DNA of 41,727 nt from Lachnospiraceae bacterium (GTDB lineage Bacteria; Bacillota; Clostridia; Lachnospirales; Lachnospiraceae). Both the position numbers and the translations under genes were made by a program. The notes under the pieces were generated by a model. The model saw only the letters and a list, made by a program, of their open reading frames with translations, was not told the origin of the DNA and ran no database searches. Shown here in pieces: positions 3 to 26,000 of the stretch. The stretch covers positions 1-41,727 of the forward strand of contig JAFTVH010000008.1 in NCBI GenBank assembly GCA_017465845.1. Direction: 5' to 3'. How positions within the stretch are numbered: position 1 is the stretch's first letter; every line of letters starts with the position of its first letter.

Positions 3-647
3 GCTTTGCCGGATTATACTATGTTTAGTGTGGATGGTGGTGCTAATTATTATATGGTATACGGTGATTTCGTACCTGAGTTTGTTCTGCATGAGGTCAC
101 ATCAGTACCACTGTTGTTGGACTTTCGTTATACGGAGCTTAAACAGGACGAGGAGCTGACCATTGCCATGGAAACATACATGGGCGATCAGTTGCAGAAA
201 GCTTGTACAGTGAATACTGTGGCTAATGTTGACTGCAAGAGCGTTCTTTTAGGGGAAAATGCAGATGCACTAAAAATGCAGAATATGTTGGGACATGTTC
301 TCAACTTTGAAAATATATTAGAGTTTACGTTACCAATGGAATGGAAGGGGGCAGAACTGGGATATTCGGTGGAATTTTTGACTATGACGGATAACCAGAT
401 GCTGCAATATGTTCCTGTGGAGCTTTTAGATGATGGACTGCAGGCGACATATCGTAATGAAGAAGAAATTCACAGGCTGGAGCTTAGGCTGGGGAAGAAA
501 TTTGCACAGCCGGGAACCTATCGTATCAACATCTTTTGGAGTTACGAAGGCCTGTGTTACAATACTATACAAAAAACCTTTTTCGTAAACTGCTCGGGAC
601 GGGAAGATACCGGTACAAGCGGAGTGGAGGTATCCAATGACGAATGA
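3..647 (+). CDS. Uncharacterised protein, 5' end cut by the window edge
   Basis: The reading frame is open to the left edge, so the N-terminus is missing; the first in-window candidate start (TTG at 6) has no ribosome binding site and is probably internal. The visible 214 residues are acidic, with alternating polar and hydrophobic stretches typical of beta-sandwich extracellular domains, and no membrane segment near the C-terminus. I do not recognise a family. The gene overlaps the start of the next large surface protein by 11 bases, which implies one transcript and translational coupling. By context it is probably another component of the surface-protein locus, but that is inference from position only. 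Confidence 0.7.
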   Translation, partial: ALPDYTMFSVDGGANYYMVYGDFVPEFVLHEVTSVPLLLDFRYTELKQDEELTIAMETYMGDQLQKACTVNTVANVDCKSVLLGENADALKMQNMLGHVLNFENILEFTLPMEWKGAELGYSVEFLTMTDNQMLQYVPVELLDDGLQATYRNEEEIHRLELRLGKKFAQPGTYRINIFWSYEGLCYNTIQKTFFVNCSGREDTGTSGVEVSNDE

Positions 648-5310: not shown

Positions 5311-5456
5311 TCACTTTGTTTGTTATGTGTTTAAAATAAGACTATTCCCTAAATGACCTGCAAATTTGATATTCTCGATAGGATATCAGAAGCTTTCATA
5401 GGAAGGAATGATTGCACTGTTATTGTCAGTGGTAAAACTACAAAGGAGGGCACAAA

Positions 5457-7289: not shown

Positions 7290-7313
7290 AACTACACCTT
7301 GAGGTTTTGACTT

Positions 7314-9185: not shown

Positions 9186-9250
9186 CTGACAAAAAAGAAA
9201 AAGAAATAATTGAATGTAGCCATTGCTTTATTTGAAAGAATGGTTTATGA

Positions 9251-9256
9251 TATAAT
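9251..9256 (+). promoter_or_regulatory. Possible -10 box before the 9300 gene
   Basis: TATAAT lies 44 bases upstream of the start codon at 9300, in the 114-base gap after the preceding gene. No good -35 hexamer sits at 16-18 bases, so the assignment rests on the -10 match alone. If real, it would let the third paralogue be expressed separately from the upstream genes. Confidence 0.35.
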
Positions 9257-9299
9257 CAATATGCTTAAATGGTGATAGTTTTATGGAGGATGAATTATC

Positions 9300-12200: not shown

Positions 12201-12872
12201 GATGAATTCAAGGATGTGGATACCAGTTCTGCAAATGCAGCCAAGACTGCAGCAGAAGCAGCAAAAGCTCAATATGATGCATATTATGATTCGGATCCGG
12301 AGACTAATCCGGCTGAGCCTACCGCTGCAATGGCAAGATCTGCAATCAATGATCTGGATAATGCGATCAAGGCACTTGGTGCAAAGGGTGATTCTACCGT
12401 ACAGAAGATTCCGGGATTCTTCGATTCCAGCGAATTTGTATATACAGTAGAATATCCGGGAATTAAGTTAAGACTTACCGATAAGAGTGGTACAACCACT
12501 TTAGGTGCAACTATTTTGACCAAGGACGGCGTTGTGCTTAGCGTTTCTAAGACAATCGGTATCTGCGATGAGGCTGATGGTGTAGAGATTTTAGATGAAT
12601 CTTCACAGGCTATAAATTCTCTTGCTCTCAAGGTTGGAGAAACAGAAAATGTTTCGGCAGCACTTCGCTATAGTCTTGGTTCATATACCAGTGAACCTAT
12701 TGAAAAGTACACATGGGCTTCTGAGGACACGACATGTGCTACTGTATCCGGTGGCGAGAATGCTACTGTTGAGGCTGTAGCTGCAGGAGATACAGTGATC
12801 AAACTGGCGGTGACCACTGTTTGCGGAAACTCATACACCGTAGATTTACCGGTAACTGTTACTGTTGAATAA
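9300..12872 (+). CDS. SipW-signal surface protein with FIVAR-like and Big_2-like C-terminal extension
   Basis: A 1190-residue protein. The N-terminal segment (about residues 19-38) ends in TTFAWF, followed by APEV and GANGSLEIALL. The core up to about residue 640 parallels the 623-residue paralogue, including YGVRAIG, YGYAIDLAFRCN, GGSYMEF, IRVGFV, VVWLDGD and LNLQFATSAELIP. After the core come helical FIVAR-like segments (around residues 645-715 and 770-840, with a further Ala-rich helical stretch near 965-1025). The final 85 residues or so look like a Big_2 bacterial Ig-like domain, with KVGETENVSAAL, WASEDTTCATVSG and AGDTVIKL. No LPXTG or C-terminal membrane helix is present. The start is supported by GGAGGA at 9285-9290. 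FIVAR domains occur in cell-wall and matrix-binding proteins; the role here is inferred as surface display. Confidence 0.92.
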   Translation: MNRKKLRQEKPQTLKKKLMASLAMLLISTIMMSTTTFAWFVLSTAPEVTGIETQVGANGSLEIALLNTETHANMSTIRAGLGGGSLQENRITANNVWGNLIDLGYTEYGLGELTLLPARLYATDNGGSYSVDLNKMLAVPTYGYDGRIIELNADTASAVYQETGFLYSGAQDYGVRAIGINDALSPQGSALSSAKTNITTWTKSAKSGAQAALNKNMDGLFEIIIVHGTAGNSEAYNDTHKATVEAFLTDLDTVLGYIDGSLRQGLVAYAASTIGEEDLFVVARDKILDTTKPLSGLLSEVDNVPVEFAEWVDKLETMQNKHGLAIADCAEMNDNDYTWDEIKGVLANILNMDKLLINGKTLSQITDPMELLGGVIEMTLAPGSGLFSDIADFTDNYTASAQAMSQDVEMSTASTVKPAHLVALTAAVSTLSPADGGENATALPLTATYGYAIDLAFRCNAAMPDLVLQTKGVQRVYSGSEDGEGTVSESGSTQGGGSYMEFTSKDDNFTLEQRLALMDAIRVGFVDDQGIILGIAKLNVTSREVVDEGVVKAPLYLYDYTFEPDELTGGLILTMGERKLTDNQITELEQNVAKAVTAVVWLDGDIVDNTMVSATEATSLDGVLNLQFATSAELIPALDKTAREYTADKSGLEEALLAAGELVDLGQGNYTNVSWDAFMAAYRRAESVSNNPSASHIEIRNAVDALSEAIYLVPVSTDALTEKTAQIRQIMGEVEGVIGAYVYDYDYENRGYVAEYEEQTGTVPNQVGTLNSVNNELNKKDEGNNIFTAVYTDESWNALADALYQAEAVAMNSNATDDQINSALTVLTEAENALEFAIYYIPYEYNGSLFYMAKSETEAEDTYGRWYDANFKRIFADVTILKLDAYAAPATIAQISQDTYVSNDPDGVYEWEYITPDITFLSEVFPELRDVEVKGVHWNAIDTELFSEMMSSSQYSRLNALLDRLASDEFKDVDTSSANAAKTAAEAAKAQYDAYYDSDPETNPAEPTAAMARSAINDLDNAIKALGAKGDSTVQKIPGFFDSSEFVYTVEYPGIKLRLTDKSGTTTLGATILTKDGVVLSVSKTIGICDEADGVEILDESSQAINSLALKVGETENVSAALRYSLGSYTSEPIEKYTWASEDTTCATVSGGENATVEAVAAGDTVIKLAVTTVCGNSYTVDLPVTVTVE

Positions 12873-12887
12873 ATTTTAATTAATAAA

Positions 12888-12913
12888 CGCCGCAGCTGTT
12901 TACAGCTGTGGCG
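12888..12913 (+). terminator. Hairpin after the 9300 gene, possible partial terminator
   Basis: CGCCGCAGCTG, loop TTTA, CAGCTGTGGCG: an 11-bp stem with one G-U pair, 15 bases after the stop codon. The following bases (TAAAATAATA) are AT-rich but not a clean T run, so it may attenuate transcription or protect the mRNA 3' end rather than fully terminate. Confidence 0.5.
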
Positions 12914-12946
12914 TAAAATAATACAAAAATATAAGGAACTATGAAT

Positions 12947-13426
12947 ATGAAATTTTCTCGTATATGGATATCACGAATATGGAGTGCATTTTCTTTGATG
13001 TTTGTCTGTATAATGCTGTTTTCGTCGAACGCTGCTGCGTCTTCCTATGCGGAGCATGAGGGGCTGCAGGTGATGGTGAAGATGGATCAGGAAACATACG
13101 AAGAGGGAGAAGAAATCACAGCTACCATTACCGTAGTCAATACCAATAGCCAGCCGGTTACCATCATCAATCTGGAGCAGCTGATCCCCGAAGGATATAT
13201 TCTGGCAGAGAATTCCCAGGTGGCAACGAAAAATGTGGAGATCAAACCTGGGCAGGAGATTAGTCTGCAGGTTACATTTGTAGGTGAGCCATCTCAGCCC
13301 ACAGAGAAAGGCGAAGGCGGCACTTTTTGGGATAAGCTTTTCTATGGAGAGACTTTGGGAATCCCCAATATTATTTTGGCTGTGATCGTTGTGATCTTTT
13401 TGATTGTATTTATGCTTTTAACTTAA
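12947..13426 (+). CDS. Small secreted Ig-like protein with C-terminal membrane helix
   Basis: About 159 residues. An N-terminal signal sequence (hydrophobic stretch ending near SSNAAAS) leads into one beta-sandwich domain with YEEGEEITATITVVNTNSQP, typical of CARDB/DUF11-like domains. A short linker follows, then a C-terminal membrane helix of about 20 residues ending in MLLT with almost no cytoplasmic tail. I prefer the second of two in-frame ATGs (12947) because AGGA at 12934-12937 is nine bases from it but only three from 12941. The size and topology suggest an anchor or accessory protein for the larger surface proteins; no specific family was recognised. Confidence 0.85.
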   Translation: MKFSRIWISRIWSAFSLMFVCIMLFSSNAAASSYAEHEGLQVMVKMDQETYEEGEEITATITVVNTNSQPVTIINLEQLIPEGYILAENSQVATKNVEIKPGQEISLQVTFVGEPSQPTEKGEGGTFWDKLFYGETLGIPNIILAVIVVIFLIVFMLLT

Positions 13427-13431
13427 AGTGA

Positions 13432-13460
13432 TTGCATTTCCTCATTTTATGGTCTATAAT
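13432..13460 (+). promoter_or_regulatory. Promoter of the Cys-repeat protein gene
   Basis: TTGCAT (13432-13437), a 17-base spacer, and a perfect TATAAT (13455-13460), just after the preceding stop codon. The predicted start of transcription is near 13467, giving a leader of about 80 bases before the ATG at 13548. It shows that the following gene can be transcribed independently. Confidence 0.7.
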
Positions 13461-13477
13461 AAAAATGGTATATTAGG

Positions 13478-13493
13478 CGTAGCATATGCTGCG
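13478..13493. promoter_or_regulatory. Palindrome at the transcription start, possible operator
   Basis: CGTAGCATATGCTGCG is a 16-bp palindrome with one non-matching pair and a perfect AGCATATGCT core, about ten bases after the predicted transcription start. Its place suits a repressor site or a short leader hairpin; no known operator consensus was recognised. Confidence 0.3.
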
Positions 13494-13547
13494 TTATATA
13501 TGAGTGTATTGCATATATTGTGCTTTCTATATAAGGAGGAACAAGTC

Positions 13548-16500
13548 ATGAAAAGGAGTCTGAAAACGTTATTGCTGATGCTGGCGATGCTGTTGAGTAT
13601 CAGTCTTAGCGTCAGTGCGAAGAGTAAAGAAACATATTTTGAAGAGGATGGAGTGCAGTATTGTTGGTTGAGAGGCAACAGTACAGAAGAACCCGATCCC
13701 ATACCGGGTTATAGATGGATTAAGGTATATAAAGCAGATGGCAAGCCTGTTACACAATTAGGAGATTGTGATGAACATCCGAACAATGAAGGCTGTGACT
13801 TATTCTGTGCACAGCTTAGGCTGGAATATAAATATCAGCTGGTGACAAAAGAGGTTATGCTGATAGAAGCTACAAATGAAGAAGGCTATGCTATGATCGG
13901 TACAGAGTTCGTCTTATTGAAGCATCAGATAAAAACAAATGAGGATGGAAGCTATGATCTGGATGAGAATGGACAACTGCAGTACAATAATTCTGTGGTG
14001 ATTGGCAAGGGTACTGTTGAAAAAGATGGCTACGCAAGAATGCGTCTGAATGAGGACAGACTGGATCTGACAGAAGAACACATCCAGCTGGTGTTAGCAC
14101 AGGTTCTGCCGGATGAACAGCTTGATACCTATGTGGCGGTGCAGAAAAAGTGGTTTGTCAATCTTGTTTTACAAGAGGGCATATATGAGGTATACAGTGT
14201 AAAGGATGCCCCTTATGATGACAAGATTAAGGATCCGGCTGAGTTGAAGGATCATGGTTTCGGCGAATTGGAGCCAGCGGATACGGATGAATTCAATTAC
14301 ACCAATCAGGTCTTGAAAACCCGAAATTACTATAGGGTAGGAGATATTATTGTGAATATCTCCGTGGAAGGTTTTGAGGGAGAGATTCCTTCCCGTGTGA
14401 GAACCAATATCACCATAACCGGTCCGGAGGATTACAGTAAGAGACTTAGAGGCAGTGAAACATTGAAAGATATGCGTATGGGTGAATATACCATATCATG
14501 TTCTAATCCGGTAACTGTAGAGAATTATATTGCGGAGAAGCCTGTGGTCACTGTGCAGAGTCCGATGAATGCAGATCCGGTTGAATTGACAGAAGATGTA
14601 AAATCAGTGTTGCTTAATAGGGATCATGTCAATGCTAAGATTAACATAACCTATACATACATAGCGCAGCACGTTCATAAGTATGATGAAGGCGTGGAGA
14701 CAGAACCTACCTGTACAGAGGAAGGATATACCACTTACAAATGTATGGATCCGGAGTGCGGTCATACATACAGGGATAATTATGTAGAGCCCTATGGTCA
14801 TTTTTATAAAGAAGAGTACCATGAGAGATCTTGTATTGTGGATGGTGGTATGGTGTACACATGTCTCTACTGTGGCTATTCGTACAGCGAGGTTGAAGAA
14901 CCGGCTACCGGTCATAAGTATGATGACGATGATAAAAAGGTAACGAAACCTACATGTACAGAGCAGGGCTATACCACATACACTTGTGAGGTTTGTGGAT
15001 TTAGCTATAGAGATGATTATGTAGAAGCTCTTGAACATAGATTTGTGGATATCGAACCTTTGGAGCCTACATGTACAGAACCCGGCTATAATGTTCAGAA
15101 ATGTCTCAAGTGTGACGAGGAATTGAAGGAACCAACAGAACCGGCTTATGGTCACAACTATGACAACGATGATAAAATGGTGACAGCACCTACCTGTACG
15201 GAGAAGGGATATACCACTTTCATTTGTTCGAATGAAGGATGTGGTTATTCCTACAAAGGAGAGGAAGTGGAGGCAACCGGACATAGTTACACCAGCAAGG
15301 TTATTGAACCTACGACAGAGAGAGAAGGCTATACACTTCATACCTGTTCTGTATGTAATGATACCTATACAGACAACCATAAGGACAAACTCACAAACAA
15401 TTCTAACGATGTTGGTAATTCGGATAGTGACGATTCGTCAGCAGAGCAGGCTCCGACAGCAACGCCGGCTCCGGCAGTTACATCGGCACCAAGTGTAAGT
15501 ACCAGTGAGCCTGTCACCTTGATTGTGAAATCGGTTGATGATATGGGGAATCCATTAAATGGTACAACGGTTGCCCTTTACAATGGTCGCAGTCAGTTAC
15601 ATTCATGGTCTTGCACCTATGATAATGTAGCTGTGTTAGATAATCTGGGAGATTATGTCAAAGAGGGTGAGACCGTTTCCTTGACATTGGTTCAGACAAA
15701 AACTCCCAATGGTTATGATGTTTCTGAGGATAGCTTTACTGTAAAACTGAATAAACGAAACGGGAAAGTAGCCATTGATGTAAAAAAAGATACCGGATTA
15801 TTTGGTGGCAGTGTTTCAAAGAGTAATGATGGCAAGTCCATTGTTACCTTTAGTAGCAACAGACAGGTGGCTCATGTAGGCGTTTGCTGTAATGTAGCAG
15901 TGGAATTTAATCAAAATTGTCAGGTAGATGAAACTCTTATAGAGGAATATCAGAATCAGACTTATGAATTTGTTTTAAAATGGATGGATTCACAGGGCAA
16001 AGAGCAAAATGAAAAGGTACGGTTGTCTCATGGAGAAGTAGCTCTGATGGAAGCTCAGCTTCCTTTGGGGGCAGAGTATGAGATTACATGCGTGGATGCA
16101 GAAGGCAATCCGATTGCAGGGTTTTCTGAAAATTCATCCGGCACCATTTCATCCATACAAGTAGAAGAGAATCTGGTAGTAGAGGCCAATCTGAAATATA
16201 CCGTTAAAATGGGGGATGATCTGAGGCTGAAGATGATTGTTTTGGATGAATCCGGAAAACCTCTGGAAGGAGCAAGCTTTGAACTGAAGGATCCGGAAGG
16301 AAAGAAGATTGGCAACTATTTCAGCCATAAGAACGGTGAATTCTATATTGAGGATACATTTAATGTGACAGGTGATTATCTCTTGACACAGATTGCAGCA
16401 CCTGAAGGCTATGAACCTATAAAAGGCGGAGCTCCTGTGATCGTGTCAAAGGTCTGTGTACCGGAGGCAGAGGCAGGAAATCAGGTTCTTGTACAGTCCA

Positions 16501-16799
16501 TGGCAGCCAAGATTGCACATCAGGCTGTGTCACAGGAAGAGGACGGTACCTTCCGAATTAAAAATGCAACTGTAGATGCTGTAGAAGCCGGATCTTCAAA
16601 TGGAAAAGGATTGGGTCTGAAAGGAATCCTGGGTATCGTTGCGGCAGTTGTTGTGCTTATCGGCGGCAGTGTAACAGCCTTTATTGTGGATAGAAAAATA
16701 AAAAATAAATTCGCCGGAGAAGACGATGAGTTTGAAGATGCTGCAGACAGTGAAGATGCTTCAGGCTCGGAGGAAGCTTTGGAAGGTAAGGAAGAATAG
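13548..16799 (+). CDS. Surface protein with Cys-rich tandem repeats, Cna-B/SpaA-like domains and membrane anchor
   Basis: A 1083-residue protein when started at 13548, which has AAGGAGGA at 13533-13540; the frame is open further upstream but without a site. A signal peptide (about residues 1-24, ending VSA) is followed by a folded N-terminal region with a Cna-B-like look. Then come six repeats of roughly 40 residues (about 375-615) of the pattern PTCTExGYTTYxC..CGxSY...GH, a Pro/Thr/Ala linker, a Cna-B-like domain (about 656-730) and a SpaA-like domain (about 890-965, with PLEGASFELKD and APEGYEP). A membrane helix lies near residues 1020-1045, followed by a tail of about 35 mostly acidic residues. 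No LPXTG is present. SpaA/Cna-B domains usually act as rigid stalks in adhesins. The C..C pairs could bind metal or form disulphides. Confidence 0.9.
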   Translation: MKRSLKTLLLMLAMLLSISLSVSAKSKETYFEEDGVQYCWLRGNSTEEPDPIPGYRWIKVYKADGKPVTQLGDCDEHPNNEGCDLFCAQLRLEYKYQLVTKEVMLIEATNEEGYAMIGTEFVLLKHQIKTNEDGSYDLDENGQLQYNNSVVIGKGTVEKDGYARMRLNEDRLDLTEEHIQLVLAQVLPDEQLDTYVAVQKKWFVNLVLQEGIYEVYSVKDAPYDDKIKDPAELKDHGFGELEPADTDEFNYTNQVLKTRNYYRVGDIIVNISVEGFEGEIPSRVRTNITITGPEDYSKRLRGSETLKDMRMGEYTISCSNPVTVENYIAEKPVVTVQSPMNADPVELTEDVKSVLLNRDHVNAKINITYTYIAQHVHKYDEGVETEPTCTEEGYTTYKCMDPECGHTYRDNYVEPYGHFYKEEYHERSCIVDGGMVYTCLYCGYSYSEVEEPATGHKYDDDDKKVTKPTCTEQGYTTYTCEVCGFSYRDDYVEALEHRFVDIEPLEPTCTEPGYNVQKCLKCDEELKEPTEPAYGHNYDNDDKMVTAPTCTEKGYTTFICSNEGCGYSYKGEEVEATGHSYTSKVIEPTTEREGYTLHTCSVCNDTYTDNHKDKLTNNSNDVGNSDSDDSSAEQAPTATPAPAVTSAPSVSTSEPVTLIVKSVDDMGNPLNGTTVALYNGRSQLHSWSCTYDNVAVLDNLGDYVKEGETVSLTLVQTKTPNGYDVSEDSFTVKLNKRNGKVAIDVKKDTGLFGGSVSKSNDGKSIVTFSSNRQVAHVGVCCNVAVEFNQNCQVDETLIEEYQNQTYEFVLKWMDSQGKEQNEKVRLSHGEVALMEAQLPLGAEYEITCVDAEGNPIAGFSENSSGTISSIQVEENLVVEANLKYTVKMGDDLRLKMIVLDESGKPLEGASFELKDPEGKKIGNYFSHKNGEFYIEDTFNVTGDYLLTQIAAPEGYEPIKGGAPVIVSKVCVPEAEAGNQVLVQSMAAKIAHQAVSQEEDGTFRIKNATVDAVEAGSSNGKGLGLKGILGIVAAVVVLIGGSVTAFIVDRKIKNKFAGEDDEFEDAADSEDASGSEEALEGKEE
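14670..15392 (+). repeat. Six Cys-rich tandem repeats inside the 13548 gene
   Basis: Period of about 120 bases. Each unit carries PTC (or a variant), GYTTY or a variant, a C..C or C....C pair, and a closing GH. The second unit replaces PTC with RSC and the sixth replaces it with PTT, so the edges are degenerate. The repeats encode an extended or metal-binding module of the surface protein. Confidence 0.85.
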
Positions 16800-16811
16800 G
16801 GAGAAGAAGAT

Positions 16812-17447
16812 ATGCAGAAAAAAAACATTCTATGGATTGTTGTGTTGGTTGTAGCCATTGTGATGTTTTGTATTATCCTCTTTGTTATACCCGATGGGCA
16901 GAGCAATGGGATAGAAATGGCTCTGCAATCTTCAGCAGTTTCAGTAGAGTCTGTGGAAAATTCCACAGACTCTGCTGACTTGGAGGGCATTTACAAAGAA
17001 GGAGAATTTATATTTACCGCAGTGCAGGTCAGAGAACGTTTTGGATCCACTTTGCCGGAGGGATATCTTTTTGCTGATACGCCGGTTGCCAATCCTGCGC
17101 AGAATGATAAATTGCAGTTGGATATACTGGATACAACCGGAATGTCTACGGATATAGCGTTATTATTTAATGTGAAGGAAGCGGATCTGGTGTTCAATCA
17201 AATCGCTCTCGTAATAAAGGAAGGCGGATATAAAGAGGATGTCACGGCCATACTGGAATGGTATCTGGAAACGTTTGCTGACAGTTTTGAAGATAAGGAG
17301 AGGGCTTCTATCAACAAAGAGTATCTGGATATGTTTGAAAACAGGAAAGAAGAGTACAGTGTGTATTCAACAGATGCCCAGTCGGTAATGATGAATTTCA
17401 TGGCGGAGGAGTCCGGCAAGTATTATTATGTGATCATTTCGATTTAG
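16812..17447 (+). CDS. Small membrane-anchored protein of unknown function
   Basis: A 211-residue protein, 12 bases after the preceding stop, with a GGGAGAAGAAG purine-rich site. Residues about 6-26 form one hydrophobic signal-anchor. A short Ser/Glu-rich linker follows, then an extracellular domain of about 155 residues mixing strands and an amphipathic helical region (around residues 140-180). No catalytic motif or family was recognised. The tight spacing indicates co-transcription with the Cys-repeat protein, so it is probably an accessory to that surface protein. Confidence 0.85.
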   Translation: MQKKNILWIVVLVVAIVMFCIILFVIPDGQSNGIEMALQSSAVSVESVENSTDSADLEGIYKEGEFIFTAVQVRERFGSTLPEGYLFADTPVANPAQNDKLQLDILDTTGMSTDIALLFNVKEADLVFNQIALVIKEGGYKEDVTAILEWYLETFADSFEDKERASINKEYLDMFENRKEEYSVYSTDAQSVMMNFMAEESGKYYYVIISI

Positions 17448-17513: not shown

Positions 17514-17542
17514 TTGCAAACCTTGCCAAAAGGTGGTAAACT
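17514..17542 (+). promoter_or_regulatory. Possible promoter of the giant secreted protein gene
   Basis: TTGCAA (17514-17519), a 17-base spacer, and TAAACT (17537-17542), about 80 bases before the ATG at 17623. The match is moderate. The 175-base gap between genes makes a promoter here likely, though the exact boxes are uncertain. Confidence 0.4.
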
Positions 17543-17622: not shown

Positions 17623-20600
17623 ATGAGGAACTGGTGGAAGAGAAGTCTTTCGCTGTTTTTGTCGTTGGTTCTGGTTCTGGGGCTTATGCCTACAGGACTG
17701 AAAGCAAAAGCAGCAGAAGGAGTGGATCCTAGTCAGGATCTGAACAATGCGAACGGTATTATCTGGCTGACCAAGAATGAGGCCGGTGACAGTGTTTCTG
17801 ACGAGTTCAGCAGCATGGTTCAGACTAAATTTTTGCTGGATGATATGGTTCGAGAAGCCTTGGGTATTACAGATGCGAAGACCAAGGTTTACTTTAAGGG
17901 GGTTGACGTAGGTAACGTCATGGACCTTATGAGAAATCAGGAAGTTGTTGAGTCATTGTTGGATGAGATGAAAGAATCCATTTCTAACCAATATTTGGTT
18001 GACTTTACGATCAACAACACAGTGCAGAAGATCGCTTTCAGAAATCTGAAAGCTGCAGAGATCGTAGTTGGAGAAGACAACAAGATCTATATCGATCACA
18101 AGGGAACACCTGCAAGTGCAGATGTGTTGGAGCAGTTGATCTCTGACGCGCTGAATAGTGCGAATGTAAGTGTTACCCATACCGGTACTGTCAGTGCAAC
18201 CGGTATTAAGACAACAGGTACCAAAGCTCGTTATGAGGGTAGTGACCTGGCAATCAGCAACAAGCAGACATATGCAGATCTTGTTGCAAAATGGCCTACT
18301 ATTTCTTCCGGTTTAGCTGAGAGAAAAGCAGGTACTGTAACTGTTACAATTTATGCTGCAGAATATGATGCAAAGGATCCGGATGACAAATTCAAGCAGA
18401 CGGTTACTGCAGATGTTATCTTACGTGACAGCGACAGAGCGACTGTTACGGTGAAGGCTGTGGCAATGGGTCCTGACGGAGAGGTTCAGGATGCGGAACT
18501 TGCAGGATATGAATATAGCTATCAGGCATATATAGGCGATACTATGAAAGCAGACTTAAAGCCTGTTCTGGATAACTATAGATGGAATAGTTGGAAGACT
18601 GAATTGCCTGCAACAGTAACCGGAGATGCCACTTATTTTGCAGTTATGGAAGCAAAGACAGACAGCAATGGAAACGGTCTTGCAGATCAGAACGAAGTGT
18701 TCACTGTTACATATTTAGATGCTGATGGTGTTCAGATTGGTGAACCTATCACCGAAAAGTTTGGTGCAGCTACTCCTGAAGTTGCTAAGCCTGTTGCTCC
18801 GGAAGGAAAGAAGTATATCTGGAAGCTTTATAATGAAAGCACAGGAGAAGTTTACGGTGCATGGCAGCCTAAGGTTAACGGCAATGTGATTTATAAAGCT
18901 GTATTGCTGGAAGGTCCAAGCGTTACCGGTACACTTATGTTCCGTGGAAAATCTTCAACTCCTGTTGAATTATTCACATACTTGGCTAATCTCGAGACAA
19001 ATGATGGATACAAGGTAGAAGATCCAAGCTGGGAAACACTTGCACAGGAAGGATATATTTCGACCGGTTGGTATACTCTGGTTCCGGAAGGTAGCGAAGG
19101 TGCTGAAGACTTAAACCGTGACGGAAAGGCAGAAGAATTACCATTCGTCATGGATTCAGATATTGTATATACTGAAAACGGAAGCGTAGAATTATACTTC
19201 GAATTCTTCACAACCAGATTTGATGAATATTGGGCAGATGGTACCGAACTGAGTCCAATGTATATTTACAAAATCGATGTAAATGGTGTATCTAAAGAGG
19301 TTGAGCTTGGAGAGGATAAAGGCGAAGTTGATGAAAACCTGTTCCCTGAATGCAAGCTTGGCAAGTATCAGCTGTTCGGTGGTTGGGAATATACTTTGGC
19401 CGAAACAGAAGGTGCTATTTACACCTATAGTGTAGAACCTGTTATCATTGATATTGAAAGTACCGTTAGCATGGACAGTACAGTCGATACCATGGTTGGT
19501 CAGGAGTACACAAGTACTTATGAAATCGTAGAAGATGGTTTGCTTCGTTATATCTGGACAAAGGCTGCGGATGACTACTATGAGGCATTCGTTGAAATCT
19601 CAGGTATGACCAAGGTAGAGTCAATGCTTAGAGCAATAGGCACCGAAGAAAAGTACAACTTCCTTTACGATGCAAATACTGAGATTACAGTATCTCCAAT
19701 CTGGAAGGTTGAAGGTAATAGTAAGAAGATTGCTTTCTATGTTGATGATATAAGAGTAGACCAAGGAAGTATTCTTGGTGGTTATACTCCGGATTTTGAA
19801 GCATTCAGTGAAACTGGTAAGTATGCAGATCCTGCAAATCCTGAAGTTACACTGTACATTGGCTATAAACCAGCTAATTTCAAATTAAAAGATACTCCTG
19901 ATAGTGTACAAGCAGGTCTGAGCAACTACTCAGAAAAAGATGTTTATGAAGCTATCATGGATACTACTGAGAAGAATGGTATTAAATTCGCACCGGACTA
20001 TAATGCGGACGAAATGACTGTTCTGTATCTTGCTCGTGAAAAAGAAGATATAGAGATTGATCTTTACATGCTTTACGAACTTTTCGATGTAGAAGGTCTT
20101 GGCGTTCTGTTGGACGGCGTTGGAAGTCTTCCTAAGACTTACACAGTACCTGTAACCGAAAAATGGTTGAATGTTTCTGCAGAAGTTTCTGCTGAAAAGA
20201 CAGCTCAGGAAGTGACAGATGCTTTCATTAAGAAAGCTTATGAACAACAGAAGGCAGAGAAATTTGCTAACATCGAAGACTTCATTAATAACTTCCTCCC
20301 TGATTTAGTGGAAGAAATCGATACACAGGCCATTCATAAATTTGGTAACAATGTAAATGGCAACAGTGAAGAAGTAAAGATTGCTTACAAGGGTGAAAAG
20401 TATTCAGCAGAAGCTAAAGTTGATGCACTTCCGCTTGTAGATGATCGTACCCCTACTTACTTTGTAGTGGATGGTAATGTTACCACTCCTTATGGTGAGT
20501 CTACCGGCAGCAAGGTATTAAACAACGTAACTCTGTATGCAAATGGCGTAGCTATCACAGGTGTAGAATTTGTTACCTTGGACGGTGCAGATGCACGTGA

Positions 20601-23600
20601 TTATACCAATGCAGGAACCGGAGAGTACAACAATGTAGTTGTTGCTTTCAAGGGTAACGACACATATCAGCCTGCTACCAGTGATGCATTCAAGCTTACT
20701 GTAACAAAGGTTGAACCTACTGTTGAAGTAGAGGAACTGATCGCTGTTCTGAAGGGCACTGACTATTACGATAAGGCTGTAGCAAAGGTTGCTCCTAATG
20801 CCCCTATCGTACAGATCGTTGCAGGTATTTCTGCAGATGAGTTCAAGCTGGACAGCAACCTTGCACTTGCTGATAATAAGATTGTCATTGATGCATGGGT
20901 AAAATTACCTAAAACTTATACAGAATTATTAGATGGCTTGAATTTAGGCGAACTGAATGGTATGGTGGATGGTGTTAACCTTCCAAGTACAACTATTGAA
21001 GTAGGCGCTTACTACGAGAAAGAACATCTTGAAGAAGTATTAGAAGAGTATATTGCGGATGCTGACGTAGCCGGAGCTGATCAGATTCAACAGATTCTGG
21101 ATATCATGGATAGGATTCCTGAAAAGCTTCTGAACAGACTCGGCGTAAACGATATGAATTATACTCTGAGAATCCGTTTAGATGCACTTGAAGATCAGGT
21201 ATATCCTACTGATTCCGGATTCTATGTAAACTATGCAGCTACACTCTCTACTTTTACAAATAAAATGGGTGGTGTTGATAAGAACTATGGTACTTCTGAC
21301 GATTACGGATTTATCGTGATCTCTCCTATGGTTCCTGTTCCTAACCGAGGCGGCGTTCAGCTTTACGACGGTGAGATCAGTAATGCACAGAACGTATTCG
21401 TATATGAATACAATGGAGAAAAGATCGAACGCGACCTTGAAGTTGCAATCAATGGCGAGAAGAAGGATGATAAGCCATTCTACTATGGTTTAACTACAAG
21501 ATTTGATGCTACACAGCAGGTTCCTTCCACTCCCGGTGTATACTTCGCAGGTTACAATTACACCACAGAAGTATATAACGAAGATTCAAAAGAAAATGAA
21601 GTTCGTCGTCTGGGAAGTGACTCCGCTATTATTATCATCAAGCAGCGTGAAGTAGACCTGAATATCGTGGGTGGTACTTACGAATTTGACGGTGATAATC
21701 ACTTTGCAGAGATTATCGTTACAGATAAGAACGGTACAGAAGTAAATGATGCGGGAGCAACTATTATCTCCGGTACCGCTAATGTTAACACAGGAAGCAC
21801 AAACGTTTCGATCGATGACCTTTATGGTACTGTAAACATTGACTTCCCGGATGCACTTCAGAATAAGTGGGATGAGTATTGTAACAGAATCTGGGGCCAG
21901 AATGCACAGGATAAATTTGCTCCCAGTGATGTGATCTCCTTCTTAGAAGAGTGTGGAGATGCAGCTGAAAGTGCTGCAAACAAAGCTGTTGAAGAATTTA
22001 AGGATTTGGCAATCAATGAAACTGTAAGTGCAGCGTTGGATAAGATCAACGGAAAGTTGGATAAGGTTGATGTAAGCTCAGACAATCTGATCGATAAGGC
22101 TGAAAGAATTCAGCACTTAATGCAGGGCGGTAAAGCTTACTATGATGCACTCATCAAACAGCTTGAGCCTCTGAAGGCTTATGACAACAATGTATGGATT
22201 ACCTTCTATGATCTGGAAGATGAAGCTGATAAGCTGGATTATTCCAAGACCGGATATTATCTGTATCTGGGCTTAACTACCGATCCTGACGTAACTGTTA
22301 GTGGCGGTAAAGCACTGGTAATCATTCACTCTGCTGATGATTACATTATGCGTGATACTCACGTTCCTTATGACGGACAGCCACATAATATCTTCATCGA
22401 TGATACTACTACTCGCGGTGATGTAACAGTGATGGTTGACCGTGAAGAGAATGAGATTAAGTTCTTCCTGGATGGCGATGTATTTAAGGCTGTTAACGAG
22501 GCTTTAACAACTGTTCTGGGAGCAGGAACAAAGATCAGTGATGGCGGGGACGGATATGTAGCCACTGCATATACCAAGGCTGAAAAGGTTGCAGATGCTG
22601 TAACAGCTAAACTTGTTGATGCAATTAAAAAGAAAGCAATTGACAAGATCAAAGCGAAATATCCTAATGGTGGTGAAGCTTTAGAAGAAGCTCTTGGCAC
22701 TTTAGAAACTAAGGTTAATAATCTGACTGATAAAGTTTCTGCAAAACTTCAAGAATTAGATAAGATGCCTGCTGACACTCGTATCGTTGTTTACGAAAAG
22801 AGCAGTGCAACTGATCTTAACGGAATGCCTGTAGATGCCGGTACTTATGAATTCTACGGATATGACTATGATGTATCTGCAACGCGCGGAACTCTCGTTA
22901 TCGAACCTATCTACGTTGTTGTAGATGATAATGATGCTTGGAAGTATGTAAACGAACAGGATCCTGCATTGACTGCAGAAGTTACTTACTACAGCTACGA
23001 AGGTTATGCTCCTGATGCAGTAGCAGAAGTAGCAATTACACAGCTTCCTGCAGGCGTAACAGAAGCTGAATTAGTAAGCTATACTGTTGACCGTGAAGAT
23101 GGTGAAGCGATTGGCTTCTACGATATTACTGTAGATGCATCTCTTCTTGATGCATCAGGCAACTATGTTCTGGTTAATGTAGAAGATGGCGATGACTTTG
23201 AAATCCGTGTATATGGTACAATTTTGAAGGGTAAAGGAACCCTGAGCTTGAAAGGTGAAGTATATATCGAGTATATGCCTGTCTTAGAAGGTTTTGAAGG
23301 TATAGACTTAACCGATAAGGGTGGTCTTGTTATTTGGAACAAACCAGGCAAACCAACTAGTTCGAACTTGATTTATCCTGAAAATACGGATGATTGTATC
23401 GTCTTACAGAATATGTACTGGTCAGATAAGTTAGATGCATGGACTGTTACTACGAATGGTATTAATGCTAAAAATTATGGCGATCTTATATATATGCGTC
23501 CATTCATAGAGATAAACGGAAACTATATTTATGGTGAGGCTATATGGTATAGTCCTGAGCTGTACTGTGAGGAAATGTTGAATGCTTCCTTAGAAGAAGC

Positions 23601-24288
23601 TCCTTATGATCTGAAAGAAGTATGTGCGGCATTGCTTGAGTATGGTGCAGCTGCACAGACATACTTTGGATATAAGACAGATGAACTTGTTAATGACGGA
23701 TGGGATTTCTCTGCATATGATTTAGCTTACGCTGACAATATGCTTGATGATTTGGTACCACCTGTGAAGGAAACAACACCAAGTGTAAATGGTACATTGA
23801 TGAGAGCATGGGATGCTAAGGCAACATTATCACTGAAATCTGCGGTAGTTCTTGAAGTTGTATTACCTAATGTAACTGCTGAGAATATTGTATCTTCTGA
23901 ATTGTTAGTATGGACAAAAGATGATTTTGCTGCAACTGATAATTTCAGAAATGACGCAGATACTTGTACATTTAGAGTTCCGCTTGAACTTGGTACATTG
24001 ATGGGTGATGATGGATATGTAGCAACCTTAAGAGTTGATGACCCTAATGCAAGATACGCAGGTATTTCAGCGAAGGAATGTGGCGATACTATTTACTTCA
24101 TGGCATATTTTGAGACAGAAGAAAACGGAGAAATCAAGACCTATCGTACAAACATGAAGTATTACAGCCCGGATGAATATGTTAGAAAGCAAGTTGCAGA
24201 AGGTACTAAGGAAGCTGAAGTATCTATGAGATTAGCAGTTTATAGTGAAAAAGCCAAAGCATACTTTGCGAATCCGGCTAATAAGTAA
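17623..24288 (+). CDS. Giant secreted multidomain surface protein
   Basis: A 2221-residue protein when started at 17623, where the sequence begins MRNWWKRSLSLFLSL, a typical signal peptide with cleavage after KAKAAE. An upstream in-frame start at 17533 would bury the signal and lacks a good site. The body is a chain of acidic, Thr/Val/Asp-rich beta domains. Segments near bases 20460-20720 and 22900-23210 resemble MBG/YDG-type Ig-like modules (PTYFVVDG, PALTAEVTYYSYEG). The C-terminus has two related domains, described separately. There is no LPXTG and no C-terminal membrane helix, so it is secreted or held non-covalently. It ends only 22 bases before the 35-residue VPGGEW peptide gene, which suggests one transcript. 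Confidence 0.9.
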   Translation: MRNWWKRSLSLFLSLVLVLGLMPTGLKAKAAEGVDPSQDLNNANGIIWLTKNEAGDSVSDEFSSMVQTKFLLDDMVREALGITDAKTKVYFKGVDVGNVMDLMRNQEVVESLLDEMKESISNQYLVDFTINNTVQKIAFRNLKAAEIVVGEDNKIYIDHKGTPASADVLEQLISDALNSANVSVTHTGTVSATGIKTTGTKARYEGSDLAISNKQTYADLVAKWPTISSGLAERKAGTVTVTIYAAEYDAKDPDDKFKQTVTADVILRDSDRATVTVKAVAMGPDGEVQDAELAGYEYSYQAYIGDTMKADLKPVLDNYRWNSWKTELPATVTGDATYFAVMEAKTDSNGNGLADQNEVFTVTYLDADGVQIGEPITEKFGAATPEVAKPVAPEGKKYIWKLYNESTGEVYGAWQPKVNGNVIYKAVLLEGPSVTGTLMFRGKSSTPVELFTYLANLETNDGYKVEDPSWETLAQEGYISTGWYTLVPEGSEGAEDLNRDGKAEELPFVMDSDIVYTENGSVELYFEFFTTRFDEYWADGTELSPMYIYKIDVNGVSKEVELGEDKGEVDENLFPECKLGKYQLFGGWEYTLAETEGAIYTYSVEPVIIDIESTVSMDSTVDTMVGQEYTSTYEIVEDGLLRYIWTKAADDYYEAFVEISGMTKVESMLRAIGTEEKYNFLYDANTEITVSPIWKVEGNSKKIAFYVDDIRVDQGSILGGYTPDFEAFSETGKYADPANPEVTLYIGYKPANFKLKDTPDSVQAGLSNYSEKDVYEAIMDTTEKNGIKFAPDYNADEMTVLYLAREKEDIEIDLYMLYELFDVEGLGVLLDGVGSLPKTYTVPVTEKWLNVSAEVSAEKTAQEVTDAFIKKAYEQQKAEKFANIEDFINNFLPDLVEEIDTQAIHKFGNNVNGNSEEVKIAYKGEKYSAEAKVDALPLVDDRTPTYFVVDGNVTTPYGESTGSKVLNNVTLYANGVAITGVEFVTLDGADARDYTNAGTGEYNNVVVAFKGNDTYQPATSDAFKLTVTKVEPTVEVEELIAVLKGTDYYDKAVAKVAPNAPIVQIVAGISADEFKLDSNLALADNKIVIDAWVKLPKTYTELLDGLNLGELNGMVDGVNLPSTTIEVGAYYEKEHLEEVLEEYIADADVAGADQIQQILDIMDRIPEKLLNRLGVNDMNYTLRIRLDALEDQVYPTDSGFYVNYAATLSTFTNKMGGVDKNYGTSDDYGFIVISPMVPVPNRGGVQLYDGEISNAQNVFVYEYNGEKIERDLEVAINGEKKDDKPFYYGLTTRFDATQQVPSTPGVYFAGYNYTTEVYNEDSKENEVRRLGSDSAIIIIKQREVDLNIVGGTYEFDGDNHFAEIIVTDKNGTEVNDAGATIISGTANVNTGSTNVSIDDLYGTVNIDFPDALQNKWDEYCNRIWGQNAQDKFAPSDVISFLEECGDAAESAANKAVEEFKDLAINETVSAALDKINGKLDKVDVSSDNLIDKAERIQHLMQGGKAYYDALIKQLEPLKAYDNNVWITFYDLEDEADKLDYSKTGYYLYLGLTTDPDVTVSGGKALVIIHSADDYIMRDTHVPYDGQPHNIFIDDTTTRGDVTVMVDREENEIKFFLDGDVFKAVNEALTTVLGAGTKISDGGDGYVATAYTKAEKVADAVTAKLVDAIKKKAIDKIKAKYPNGGEALEEALGTLETKVNNLTDKVSAKLQELDKMPADTRIVVYEKSSATDLNGMPVDAGTYEFYGYDYDVSATRGTLVIEPIYVVVDDNDAWKYVNEQDPALTAEVTYYSYEGYAPDAVAEVAITQLPAGVTEAELVSYTVDREDGEAIGFYDITVDASLLDASGNYVLVNVEDGDDFEIRVYGTILKGKGTLSLKGEVYIEYMPVLEGFEGIDLTDKGGLVIWNKPGKPTSSNLIYPENTDDCIVLQNMYWSDKLDAWTVTTNGINAKNYGDLIYMRPFIEINGNYIYGEAIWYSPELYCEEMLNASLEEAPYDLKEVCAALLEYGAAAQTYFGYKTDELVNDGWDFSAYDLAYADNMLDDLVPPVKETTPSVNGTLMRAWDAKATLSLKSAVVLEVVLPNVTAENIVSSELLVWTKDDFAATDNFRNDADTCTFRVPLELGTLMGDDGYVATLRVDDPNARYAGISAKECGDTIYFMAYFETEENGEIKTYRTNMKYYSPDEYVRKQVAEGTKEAEVSMRLAVYSEKAKAYFANPANK
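23221..24285 (+). repeat. Duplicated C-terminal domain of the giant protein
   Basis: Two copies of a domain (about 23221-23690 and 23785-24285) share TLSLK near the start, then an AKxxGDxIYxxxxxE block, a YSPExY or YSPDEY block, and a helical end with YGAAAQTYFGY (copy 1) or YSEKAKAYF (copy 2). This module is common at the ends of Lachnospiraceae surface proteins. Its function is unknown to me. Confidence 0.65.
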
Positions 24289-24310: not shown

Positions 24311-24418
24311 ATGAAAAAATACGAAGCACCAACAATGGAAGTTGTTGAAATTGAAGACGTAATTACTGATGATGACACATTAGGAAACAAAGGAAGTGTT
24401 CCAGGTGGCGAATGGTAA
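24311..24418 (+). CDS. 35-residue candidate RiPP-type precursor peptide ending VPGGEW
   Basis: The peptide starts MKKYEAPTMEVVEIEDVIT, continues DDD, and ends TLGNKGSVPGGEW. AAAGGAG lies seven bases before the ATG, an excellent site, and the stop is followed by a strong hairpin. The MKKYxxPxMEVVE start is typical of short peptides encoded beside PqqD-like genes in Clostridia, by my knowledge of such loci. Downstream lie an HPr-kinase-like gene, a lipoprotein gene with the same C-terminal tail, and a PqqD-like gene. Possible phosphoacceptors are Thr8, Thr19, Thr23 and Ser29. The Gly-Gly pair is only two residues from the end, so it is unlikely to be a double-glycine leader cleavage site. The product and its modification are unknown. 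Confidence 0.8.
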   Translation: MKKYEAPTMEVVEIEDVITDDDTLGNKGSVPGGEW

Positions 24419-24441
24419 TTTGAAACCAATTATTTAAGGTG

Positions 24442-24477
24442 ATATTACGCCGGCGGCATTTGCCGCCGGCGTAATAT
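24442..24477 (+). terminator. Strong GC-rich hairpin after the peptide gene, likely attenuator
   Basis: A perfect 16-bp stem (24442-24457 with 24462-24477) with an ATTT loop, starting 23 bases after the peptide stop. The following TCTATTTAACATT is T-rich but not a clean run. In RiPP operons a hairpin here commonly gives more precursor transcript than enzyme transcript. Confidence 0.75.
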
Positions 24478-24485
24478 TCTATTTA

Positions 24486-24537
24486 ACATTAATTTTAGTT
24501 TTATCTCTGAATTTCGGGATATAACTAAAATTAATGT
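24486..24537 (+). promoter_or_regulatory. 15-bp perfect inverted repeat in the leader of the kinase gene
   Basis: ACATTAATTTTAGTT (24486-24500) is exactly complementary to AACTAAAATTAATGT (24523-24537), with 22 bases between. It lies immediately after the GC-rich hairpin and about ten bases before the ribosome binding site of the kinase gene. It could be an operator or an mRNA hairpin affecting readthrough or translation. Confidence 0.6.
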
Positions 24538-24558
24538 AATATGTAAGGAAAGTGGATT

Positions 24559-25275
24559 ATGGCAAATAAATATAGAATAGCCGGTTTGCTTGTGTCAATG
24601 GAGAGTTTTGGAAGAACGGTGGAACAAGCCGTACCGTATTTATGTGACAGTCAAGAAGCTGCAGATTTTATTGTGCAATCAAATATTGAAGCTGTGAGAG
24701 AGACATTTCCCAATATGACGGATGATATGGCGGAATATTTATCAACAGGGTCTAGTTTTTATCGTCAGTTATTAAATTATGATGGGTTTATGCTGCATTC
24801 TTCTGCTGTGGTTGTAGATGGAAGGGCGTATCTTTTTTCCGCTGATTGCGGAACAGGTAAATCCACTCATACTCAGCTGTGGTTACGACATTTTGGTGAG
24901 AGAGCTTATATTCTCAATGATGATAAGCCGGCATTACGCATAGTAGATGGAAAATGGTATGCTTTTGGTACACCTTGGAGTGGGAAATATGACATGAGTG
25001 TAAATGAAGGTGTTGAATTAGCAGGTATTGCTATGTTAGAAAGAGCAGAGAAAAACACAATTGAGCCATATACCGGCAAATCGGCAGTTTTCGATATTTA
25101 TCGACAGGTTAATCGACCAAAATCCTATGAATATCGAGATAAATTACTCATATTGATTGGTAAGTTGATAACGGATGTTCCCATTTGGAAATTGGAATGT
25201 AATATGGAAACAGATGCAGTAGAAGTTGCATATAATGCAATGCATGATTTTGGTAAAATGAATAATAATGAATAG
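24559..25275 (+). CDS. HPr-kinase-like P-loop protein of a RiPP-type cassette
   Basis: A 238-residue protein with a P-loop (ADCGTGKST, residues 95-103) inside SADCGTGKSTHTQLW, then LNDDKPALR (119-127) and GTPWSGK (137-143). This arrangement matches the HprK/PEPCK-like family found beside PqqD-like genes in peptide-modification loci, some members of which phosphorylate the C-terminus of lasso peptides. It is shorter than true HPr kinase and lacks its N-terminal domain, so it is not hprK itself. The start at 24559 has AAGGAAAG upstream. The gene is 13 bases before the lipoprotein gene. Inferred role: ATP-dependent phosphorylation of the VPGGEW-tailed peptide or lipoprotein, or another nucleotide-dependent step. 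Confidence 0.8.
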   Translation: MANKYRIAGLLVSMESFGRTVEQAVPYLCDSQEAADFIVQSNIEAVRETFPNMTDDMAEYLSTGSSFYRQLLNYDGFMLHSSAVVVDGRAYLFSADCGTGKSTHTQLWLRHFGERAYILNDDKPALRIVDGKWYAFGTPWSGKYDMSVNEGVELAGIAMLERAEKNTIEPYTGKSAVFDIYRQVNRPKSYEYRDKLLILIGKLITDVPIWKLECNMETDAVEVAYNAMHDFGKMNNNE

Positions 25276-25287
25276 AGGAAGTAAAGT

Positions 25288-25707
25288 GTGAAAATAAAGA
25301 AGTTTATAAGCATATGTATGATATTGTTTAGTGTAATTTTATTGAATGCTTGTAGAAATTCTGAGGATGGAGCATCGCATATATATACAGATAATTCAAT
25401 TGAGGCTTCTACTGAATCGTTGCCAGAAAGTGACATCGTAGAAAGCGATTCTCAGGAACAGATATCTGTGGACAATGAAAAGGTTGATACAGAGCCAACG
25501 ACATCTTCTGAGTCGAAGAATGAGAGTTCGAATGATAAGGCGTATTTAGGTGAAGTGTTTCTTTTCGAGGAAACGGATACTGAAAATACAAATGATCAGA
25601 ATACGGATAATGGATCAGAGGAAATGCAAGACTCGGATGGGGATTCAGTAGAAGAACATAATGATACTTTAAATAACTTGGCTGAAGTGCCAGGTGGAGA
25701 ATGGTAA
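25288..25707 (+). CDS. Lipoprotein ending in the same VPGGEW tail as the peptide
   Basis: A 139-residue protein with a GTG start at 25288, preceded by GAGGAAG. A lipoprotein signal (KKFISICMILFSVILLNAC) puts the lipidated Cys near residue 22. The rest is a low-complexity, strongly acidic Ser/Asp/Glu/Asn/Thr region with no recognisable fold, apart from a short AYLGEVFLFEE segment. The last 14 residues, DTLNNLAEVPGGEW, match the peptide's last 14 (DTLGNKGSVPGGEW) at 10 positions without gaps. The codons differ at wobble positions, so this is not simply a recent DNA copy. The protein appears to be a lipid-anchored, disordered carrier of the tail. Its stop codon is 17 bases before the PqqD-like start. 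Confidence 0.8.
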   Translation: MKIKKFISICMILFSVILLNACRNSEDGASHIYTDNSIEASTESLPESDIVESDSQEQISVDNEKVDTEPTTSSESKNESSNDKAYLGEVFLFEETDTENTNDQNTDNGSEEMQDSDGDSVEEHNDTLNNLAEVPGGEW

Positions 25708-25724
25708 AGGAGGAGATATATTAT

Positions 25725-26000
25725 ATGAAATTAAAACAAGGATTTATTATGCGTGAAATCGCCGGAGAAACCATCGTTGTGCCTTCCGGGGATGAATTGA
25801 AACTGAACATGATGATTACACTTAATGATACCGGTAAGCTTCTGTGGAAGAAATTGGAAGTCGGTGCGGATATGGATGAGCTGGTGCAGGCAATGCTTGC
25901 TAAGTATGATGTGGAAGAACAGACTGCTCGCTCAGGTGCGGAAGCTTTTGTTGCTAAATTGCAGGAACGTGGTTTTTTGGAGGAAGCGTCCAATGTTTAG
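25725..26000 (+). CDS. PqqD-like RiPP recognition protein
   Basis: A 91-residue protein of the PqqD family size. It begins MKLKQGFIMREIAGETIVVP and contains LNDTGKLLWKKLE, then a helical half (DELVQAMLAKYDVEEQTA...VAKLQERGFLEE), the usual layout of a winged-helix RiPP recognition element. The start at 25725 has AGGAGGAG ten bases upstream; the longer frame from 25701 overlaps the lipoprotein stop and is unlikely. PqqD-like proteins bind precursor leader segments and hand them to modifying enzymes. Here the partners would be the 35-residue peptide and perhaps the HPr-kinase-like protein. No radical SAM enzyme, cyclase or protease is adjacent. Confidence 0.88.
   Translation: MKLKQGFIMREIAGETIVVPSGDELKLNMMITLNDTGKLLWKKLEVGADMDELVQAMLAKYDVEEQTARSGAEAFVAKLQERGFLEEASNV

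Follow-up and report, generated by a model that had tools for sequence, protein, structure and literature searches.

A clostridial cassette resembling linear polyphosphorylated peptide pathways encodes a lipoprotein whose tail matches the core of the precursor peptide

What does a cassette of only four genes, encoding a short peptide, an HPr kinase (HprK)-like protein, a lipoprotein and a PqqD-like protein, produce, and what part does the lipoprotein play in it? This question is raised by a 41,727-nucleotide stretch of DNA (the whole of which is referred to as the window here) from a Lachnospiraceae bacterium (assembly GCA_017465845.1, contig JAFTVH010000008.1). The original prediction, made from the letters of the window, placed four genes at 24311..26000, and calling of open reading frames (ORFs) confirmed them all at these positions, on the plus strand. 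It also listed radical S-adenosylmethionine (SAM), YcaO, cyclase, protease and transporter genes as missing nearby, and none was seen beside the cassette when the window ORFs were inspected by eye. Its reading of the cassette as a system for a ribosomally synthesized and posttranslationally modified peptide (RiPP), with HprK-like phosphorylation as the likely main chemistry, appears to be supported by the fold and motifs of the kinase and by the likeness to a described pathway that is set out below.

The precursor peptide (MKKYEAPTMEVVEIEDVITDDDTLGNKGSVPGGEW, with the C-terminal end VPGGEW) and the lipoprotein end alike, far beyond chance. Direct reading of the segment DDTLGNKGSVPGGEW of the peptide core against the lipoprotein tail NDTLNNLAEVPGGEW gives 10 identical residues out of 15, with both segments reaching the stop codon, and the score for the core against the lipoprotein arm is 59, whereas 10,000 shuffles reached at most 40. 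Across the 4.19-Mb genome, the PGGEW-coding pattern CCNGGNGGNGARTGGT has two occurrences, which both lie in the window cassette (backwards control, 0). The scored segment comprises 14 residues, 10 of them identical, and because 4 of these 10 use different synonymous codons, the pair is not a fresh DNA copy. In the lipoprotein, the lipobox Cys22 is followed by 118 residues, which form an acidic, Ser/Thr-rich arm and the tail (17 Ser and 10 Thr; net charge, −30). A Glu of this tail faces Ser29, the only Ser of the peptide. The lipoprotein is not just a neighbor, for its tail is a copy of the peptide core. The features of the cassette and its surroundings are collected in Table 1; genes were found with a simple script that combines ORFs and ribosome sites, and names given without a model match (asparaginase, polysaccharide genes, dihydrofolate reductase) are by-eye readings.

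Table 1. Features of the cassette and its flanks in the window
Feature	Position	Strand	Remarks
Large secreted surface protein	17623..24288	+	~2221 aa from ATG at 17623; ORF opens at 17533
C-terminal domain of surface protein	23440..24285		Motif YGAAAQ
Precursor peptide, 35 aa	24311..24418	+	AAGGA ribosome site
RRE-binding-like motif YEAP in peptide	24320..24331
Thr19 of peptide	24365..24367		Inferred leader end lies after it
Ser29 of peptide	24395..24397
Hairpin, 17 bp, between peptide and kinase genes	24441..24478	+	Fold
HprK-like kinase (LppK-like), 238 aa	24559..25275	+	Motifs, AlphaFold, fold matches
Kinase P-loop GTGKST	24850..24867
Kinase motif NDDKP	24916..24930
Lipoprotein	25288..25707	+	GTG start, LNAC lipobox
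Lipobox Cys22	25351..25353
Lipoprotein tail NDTLNNLAEVPGGEW	25660..25704	+	Copy of peptide core DDTLGNKGSVPGGEW; sequence reading
PqqD-like discrete RRE (LppB-like)	25725..26000	+	ATG at 25725; ORF opens at 25701
Asparaginase-like gene	26321		Downstream of PqqD gene; name assigned by eye

Similar pairs occur elsewhere. We collected relatives of the window kinase from a scan of genome contigs (80 loci) and from genomes of the genus (62 of 138 matching at 1e-10, 13 stretches fetched), the family (25 of 397 at 1e-30, 26 stretches), the order (46 of 392 at 1e-40, 38 stretches), the class (59 of 391 at 1e-60), and one other genus (3 of 8 at 1e-40), the last two yielding 40 stretches together. The resulting 199 kinase entries, which include the two loci of the window genome, were reduced to 190 at a 97% cut; they were sampled for their similarity to the window kinase and do not amount to an all-genome census. 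A number of these loci (numbered with L here) encode, near the kinase, anchored proteins that combine a low-complexity arm with a short tail, and the pairing of tail and core is clear in six, namely, the window (score 58) and five others, four of them independent: L175 (DDGWTGYY/ESGWSGYY, 40), L006 (FDDSNVGEW/FDSFNLGEW, 39), L307 (PEFEEAEIEF/PDFDEGDVGF, 31), its near relative L308 (31), and L119 (PEIPI/PEVPI, 26). Each has different sequences. When 23 tails from 22 loci were compared with the locus ORFs of 22 to 130 amino acids, the YxxP peptide was the best non-self match in these six loci and not in the other 16, part of which have no known peptide. A reverse search from 37 peptide loci, with the C termini of same-strand ORFs of at least 45 amino acids that have a ribosome site and lie within 5.5 kb as targets, put the same six on top (26 to 58; remainder, 25 or less), and a hydrophobicity script classed all six partners as anchored proteins. 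In a permutation test over 14 loci with both a tail and a peptide, none of 100,000 permutations reached the observed sum; the same holds without L243, and 1 of 100,000 did so without the window. This set omitted L308, a near copy of L307 that was retained elsewhere, and L062, a near copy of L063. Peptides found by eye were added for L119, L068, L023 and the second of L160 (to both the reverse search and a collection of 43 peptides), for L170 (reverse search), and for L243 (permutation test; found on rereading small ORFs near tails).

A second tail theme, [EQ]-[LM]-P-x-[IV]-P, is found in L063, L074, L118, L119, L122, L123, L174, and L305. Lipoproteins with related tails, LDWGALTPEE and LDWGPLIPVD, are encoded in L155 (5018-5527) and L023 (290-964), near kinases without a called PqqD.

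To place the cassette among known systems, we turned to its kinase and its PqqD protein. The kinase motifs GTGKST and NDDKP are invariant across 14 aligned sequences. Its AlphaFold model has a predicted local distance difference test (pLDDT) value of 93.5, with phosphoenolpyruvate carboxykinases (PEPCKs) and HPr kinases among its best fold matches; a second structure aligner gave PEPCK but no HprK among the 50 matches listed. By the fold of the model and the P-loop, the kinase belongs to the HPr kinase/PEPCK fold superfamily. At the sequence level, Pfam gave no HPr-kinase match for it, only a single RHSP P-loop match (0.045, below cut-off), and a search of its profile against PDB sequences yielded nothing useful. 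The PqqD protein matches PF05402 at 2.1e-16. In NCBIfam, the kinase matched ScmC (3.2e-6) and HprK_rel_A (0.016), and the PqqD protein matched ScmD (1.3e-3) and PqqD_rel_X (7.5e-4), all below the cut-offs and, for ScmC and ScmD, far below. SynChlorMet cassettes combine radical SAM enzymes with ScmC and ScmD, whereas no radical-SAM-like gene was called beside the window cassette; the second kinase/PqqD locus of the same genome, on contig C6, does have a radical SAM enzyme. The HPr-rel-A system, made up of an HprK_rel_A kinase plus PqqD_rel_X, shares with the window the combination of a kinase and a PqqD family protein.

The closest likeness is to the linear polyphosphorylated peptides (LPPs; lppA/K/B/S/D/N) described by Popov et al. 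(2026; PMC13381572), although the original prediction had known of no described system with exactly this composition. According to the main text of that paper, the LPP core set comprises a precursor, an HprK kinase, a RiPP recognition element (RRE), a SipW-like peptidase, an exporter and a nucleoside triphosphate (NTP) transferase, with no cyclase. The precursor has a YxxP leader that ends in Thr and is presented by a discrete RRE, whose binding requires YxxP; LppK puts one to four phosphates on core Ser3, not on Thr there; and cleavage by the SipW-like peptidase is RRE assisted (PMC13381572). The window likewise has an HprK-like kinase, a discrete RRE and no macrolactam cyclase, its peptide has a Tyr-to-Thr spacing of 15, as between Y-16 and T-1 of LppA (PMC13381572), and relatives of the cassette carry a SipW-like peptidase, an ABC exporter and an NTP transferase in LPP-type gene orders. 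Cleavage at the inferred leader end would leave the core DDDTLGNKGSVPGGEW, with the sole Ser at position 10. The leader type of the window peptide is common to the 43 collected peptides, window included, with a strict YxxP in 34. However, the published consensus YxxPxVLxHQxIxFETxxS is not fully matched by the window peptide, the clostridial leader type reads ...E-D-V-I-T versus ...FETxxS in LPPs, and the window core has no early Ser, in contrast to the LPP phosphosite at Ser3 (PMC13381572). The genes for the LppS-, LppD- and LppN-like proteins are on contig C77 instead of in the cassette, and neither a tailed anchored protein nor the YGAAAQ surface protein is mentioned in the LPP main text (PMC13381572; supplements aside). 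Because there is no Ser near the start of the core, we call the window system LPP-like and not a member of the LPPs. The paeninodin-type lasso systems, as told in PMC13381572, share with it the type of leader motif, the RRE, the HprK kinase and the NTP transferase, but differ in the Asn-synthetase-like cyclase, which was not found in the window genome or in the 124 kinase loci with PqqD considered next.

A PqqD gene lies within 3 kb of the kinase in 124 of the 190 loci (window included), and 105 of these 124 have at least one of the three further partners nearby (LppS-like, 98; ABC, 37; NTP_transf_5-like, 43). The models for these partners and for PqqD and the surface domain were seeded from the loci themselves, many of which stop at contig ends. 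Motif screens called a radical-SAM-like gene in 4 of the 124, one being the C6 locus, and an Asn-synthetase motif in none, so that the regular companion radical SAM or cyclase gene that would have spoken against the original prediction was not found. A YxxP peptide was called in 33 of the 124 (three calls look spurious, and at least four real peptides were missed), which bears out the expectation that peptide, HprK-like kinase and PqqD co-occur in other genomes. Among the 33, 30 have at least one LppS-, LppD- or LppN-like partner (27 of 30 without the spurious-looking calls), and the three that have none are the window, L072 (at a contig end), and L162. The false positives of the peptide filter (L078, L079, and L247 with PqqD; L025 and L018 without) were dropped from the reverse search and the 43-peptide collection; the counts given here stand as computed, and their tail filter missed tails caught by a looser one (e.g., in L006 and L063).

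Some loci depart from this arrangement. Kinase and PqqD genes are adjacent in L017, L029, L044, and L067, where no peptide gene was found, and in L017 and L029 the pair is followed by a dihydrofolate-reductase-like gene. No PqqD was called within 3 kb of 66 of the 190 kinases; in L010, L021, L027, L030, and L070, the gene after such a solo kinase encodes a different type of lipoprotein. L248 (7113-8746) contains three YxxP peptides, two of them with Trp-rich acidic ends (..DFEWGEWP and ..DFDWDDSWPWN).

Where are the partners that the window cassette lacks? The window genome (4.19 Mb in 201 contigs, 85% complete) has two PqqD matches and two matches to the window kinase, in the window and on C6. 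No LppS-, LppD- or LppN-like gene was called beside the window cassette. Contig C77 carries an LppN-like gene (PF14907, 5.8e-37; minus strand) side by side with LppS-like (profile E value, 4e-42) and LppD-like ABC genes (plus strand), and neither a kinase nor an RRE. LPP-type genes are thus apparently spread over two contigs, and, judging by gene content, the precursor, kinase and RRE of the window would together with the three C77 genes form one LPP set, the products of which may cooperate. Hence, the suggestion that the cassette might be complete with the kinase as its only enzyme did not hold up well, given the partners in 105 of 124 loci and one of each on C77. The C6 locus (L003, 5588-8148) has a kinase/PqqD pair, an 85-residue Cys-containing peptide (MKKAYVTP...) and a radical SAM enzyme (PF04055, 5.6e-25), with an exporter, an LppS-like peptidase and an NTP_transf_5 gene all within ~22 kb; by its gene content it appears to be a radical-SAM variant of the same theme.

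Taken together, the window cassette is probably the precursor, kinase and RRE half of an LPP-like pathway, combined with a copy of its product that is tethered to the membrane. In such a pathway, the PqqD protein would bind the YEAP leader and present the peptide to the kinase, which would phosphorylate Ser29, adjoining VPGGEW. The C77-encoded LppS-like peptidase would then cut after Thr19, and the LppD-like exporter would release DDDTLGNKG-pSer-VPGGEW. The lipoprotein would be exported separately, via Sec and lipidation, displaying its tail on the outer face of the membrane, where Glu in place of Ser29 would make the tethered tail an unphosphorylatable mimic. The secreted peptide and the tail might bind the same partner, with the tail as a self-copy that serves as an immunity decoy or a coreceptor; a candidate for this partner is the surface protein whose gene immediately precedes the peptide gene. 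More tentatively, clostridial LPP-like loci in general may encode a tethered phosphomimetic (Ser to Glu or Asp) copy of their product, ligand and copy coevolving and acting on one shared extracellular partner. Within the scored segments, a peptide Ser is faced by E in the window tail, by D in L006, by D and T in L175, and by P in L308; two further sites, immediately outside the segments, have E in L119 and P in L307. These replacements can possibly, if thinly, be read as phosphomimicry.

Several observations weigh against this interpretation. The replacing residue is acidic at 3 of 5 sites in the scored segments, or at 4 of 7 with the outside sites, and such sites are few. Without the window, L006, and L175, 145 of 100,000 permutations reach the observed sum; a clear pair is absent in 9 of the 14 permutation loci (L023, L063, L074, L158, L162, L174, L243, and L305 below the first rank; L303 tied), and no peptide was found in eight tailed loci (L118, L122, L123, L155, L163, L177, L287, and L293). 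Either the pairing is confined to a subset of loci, or it is masked elsewhere by faster divergence. LppK uses Ser3, but the window peptide is one of 3 among the 43 peptides that lack a Ser close to the cleavage site, so that Ser29 as the phosphosite is a guess. The roles assigned to the clostridial proteins would follow from their likeness to LPP biochemistry outside the clostridia. Finally, the C77 peptidase-like gene has no Pfam match, and the proposed action in trans of the C77 genes is drawn from the gene content of an 85% complete genome.

The shared end might instead be a kinase-docking tag. VPGGEW and its equivalents would then guide the kinase, and the lipoprotein would be a second substrate, its Ser/Thr-rich arm being phosphorylated in the cytosol before export. 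Such a role would suit an arm with this many Ser and Thr residues, encoded by a gene that sits between those of the kinase and the PqqD protein, as well as tails that differ between loci. We nevertheless consider it doubtful, since Ser, Thr and Tyr are all absent from the last ten tail residues, the lipoprotein lacks the YxxP leader that RRE binding in LPPs requires (PMC13381572), and a cytosolic kinase would hardly reach an exported arm.

Still less likely, in our estimation, is the original idea of a complete kinase-only RiPP, with the C77 genes serving something else. It would find a parallel in L162, which likewise has a kinase, PqqD, a peptide and a tailed protein with no LppS-, LppD- or LppN-like gene called nearby, and the genes flanking the C77 set do look like polysaccharide genes. 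However, such partners accompany nearly all peptide loci with PqqD, as counted above, a peptide with no exporter would remain inside the cell, and the C6 locus, the one further kinase/PqqD locus found in the genome, comes with a set of its own. The C77 genes and the partners in the surveyed loci thus weaken this explanation.

That the tail is just a neutral relic without function, left behind after the 3′ end of the peptide gene was copied, seems very improbable. The paired segments are similar as DNA (27 of 42 nucleotides identical in the window and 23 of 30 in L307), as a relic would be, but there are synonymous differences at conserved residues in 5 of the 6 pairs, the same arrangement is found elsewhere with unrelated sequences, and the permutation results speak against it. 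Loss of the cyclase from a lasso-peptide or radical-SAM cluster is the least credible explanation and was rejected on the basis of a PF00733 search of the genome (only a marginal match, 8e-5) and the motif screens of the loci, since, even though [Y/W]xxP occurs in lasso leaders (PMC13381572), HPr kinase and nucleotidyltransferase genes are often present in lasso clusters of rumen bacteria (according to PMC7533575), and the window PqqD protein matches lasso PqqD models at 2.6e-7 and 1e-6 (below cut-off), cyclase motifs and radical-SAM-like genes are absent or rare among the 124 loci, and the core does not show the lasso ring pattern.

The candidate partner of the tethered product copy, the surface protein, ends 22 bases before the peptide gene and has no Pfam family over the cut-off. 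Its C-terminal YGAAAQ domain, whose model has a pLDDT of 73 and matched no PDB entry at 0.001 or better, is also present next to other peptide/kinase/PqqD loci, with homologues in L006, L062, L063, L119, L120, L161, L167, L169, L174, L177, L286, L305, and L323. Of 34 peptide loci with PqqD (L119 counted), 10 encode the domain no more than 8 kb from the kinase, compared with 3 of 90 PqqD loci in which no peptide was called (Fisher test, 1.2e-4) and 1 of 66 loci without PqqD (6.3e-5). In all ten peptide loci, the domain is encoded upstream, on the same strand and within 0.95 kb; L062 and L063 are near relatives.

The hairpin that follows the peptide gene has a folding energy of −33.8 kcal/mol (z, −6.4), equaled by none of 200 shuffles. 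Neither a T-run terminator nor an Rfam family at gathering score was found between the peptide and kinase genes, and the hairpin is possibly a stabilizer or an attenuator that would favor the peptide transcript.

Farther upstream, the window contains a block of large exported proteins (637-17447), including one BspA-type leucine-rich repeat protein (PF13306, 1.1e-58) and one SpaA-domain protein. Three of them (637-5310, 7314-9185, and 9300-12872) have a common signal-anchor (..FAWL/YAWF/FAWF..) followed by PEV...V.ANG.LEIAL, a signal type that is reminiscent of SipW-dependent proteins.

While the LPP-type pathway itself has already been described, the copy of the core in the tail is the new part of the system; searches of an open-access library turned up no earlier report of such a pairing. 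Our findings suggest that LPP-like pathways extend beyond the Bacilli studied in PMC13381572 and that they can be split over the genome, in which case they would escape searches that require all the genes at a single locus. The authors who described LPPs state that the biological role of these peptides is unknown (PMC13381572), and the tethered copy offers a handle on it, namely, finding what binds both the peptide and the tail. That tail and core correspond pair by pair in divergent loci suggests that the mature peptide acts outside the cell, at the producer's own surface. If true, a tethered phosphomimetic copy would be a new kind of self-recognition in RiPP biology, as an immunity decoy or a coreceptor.

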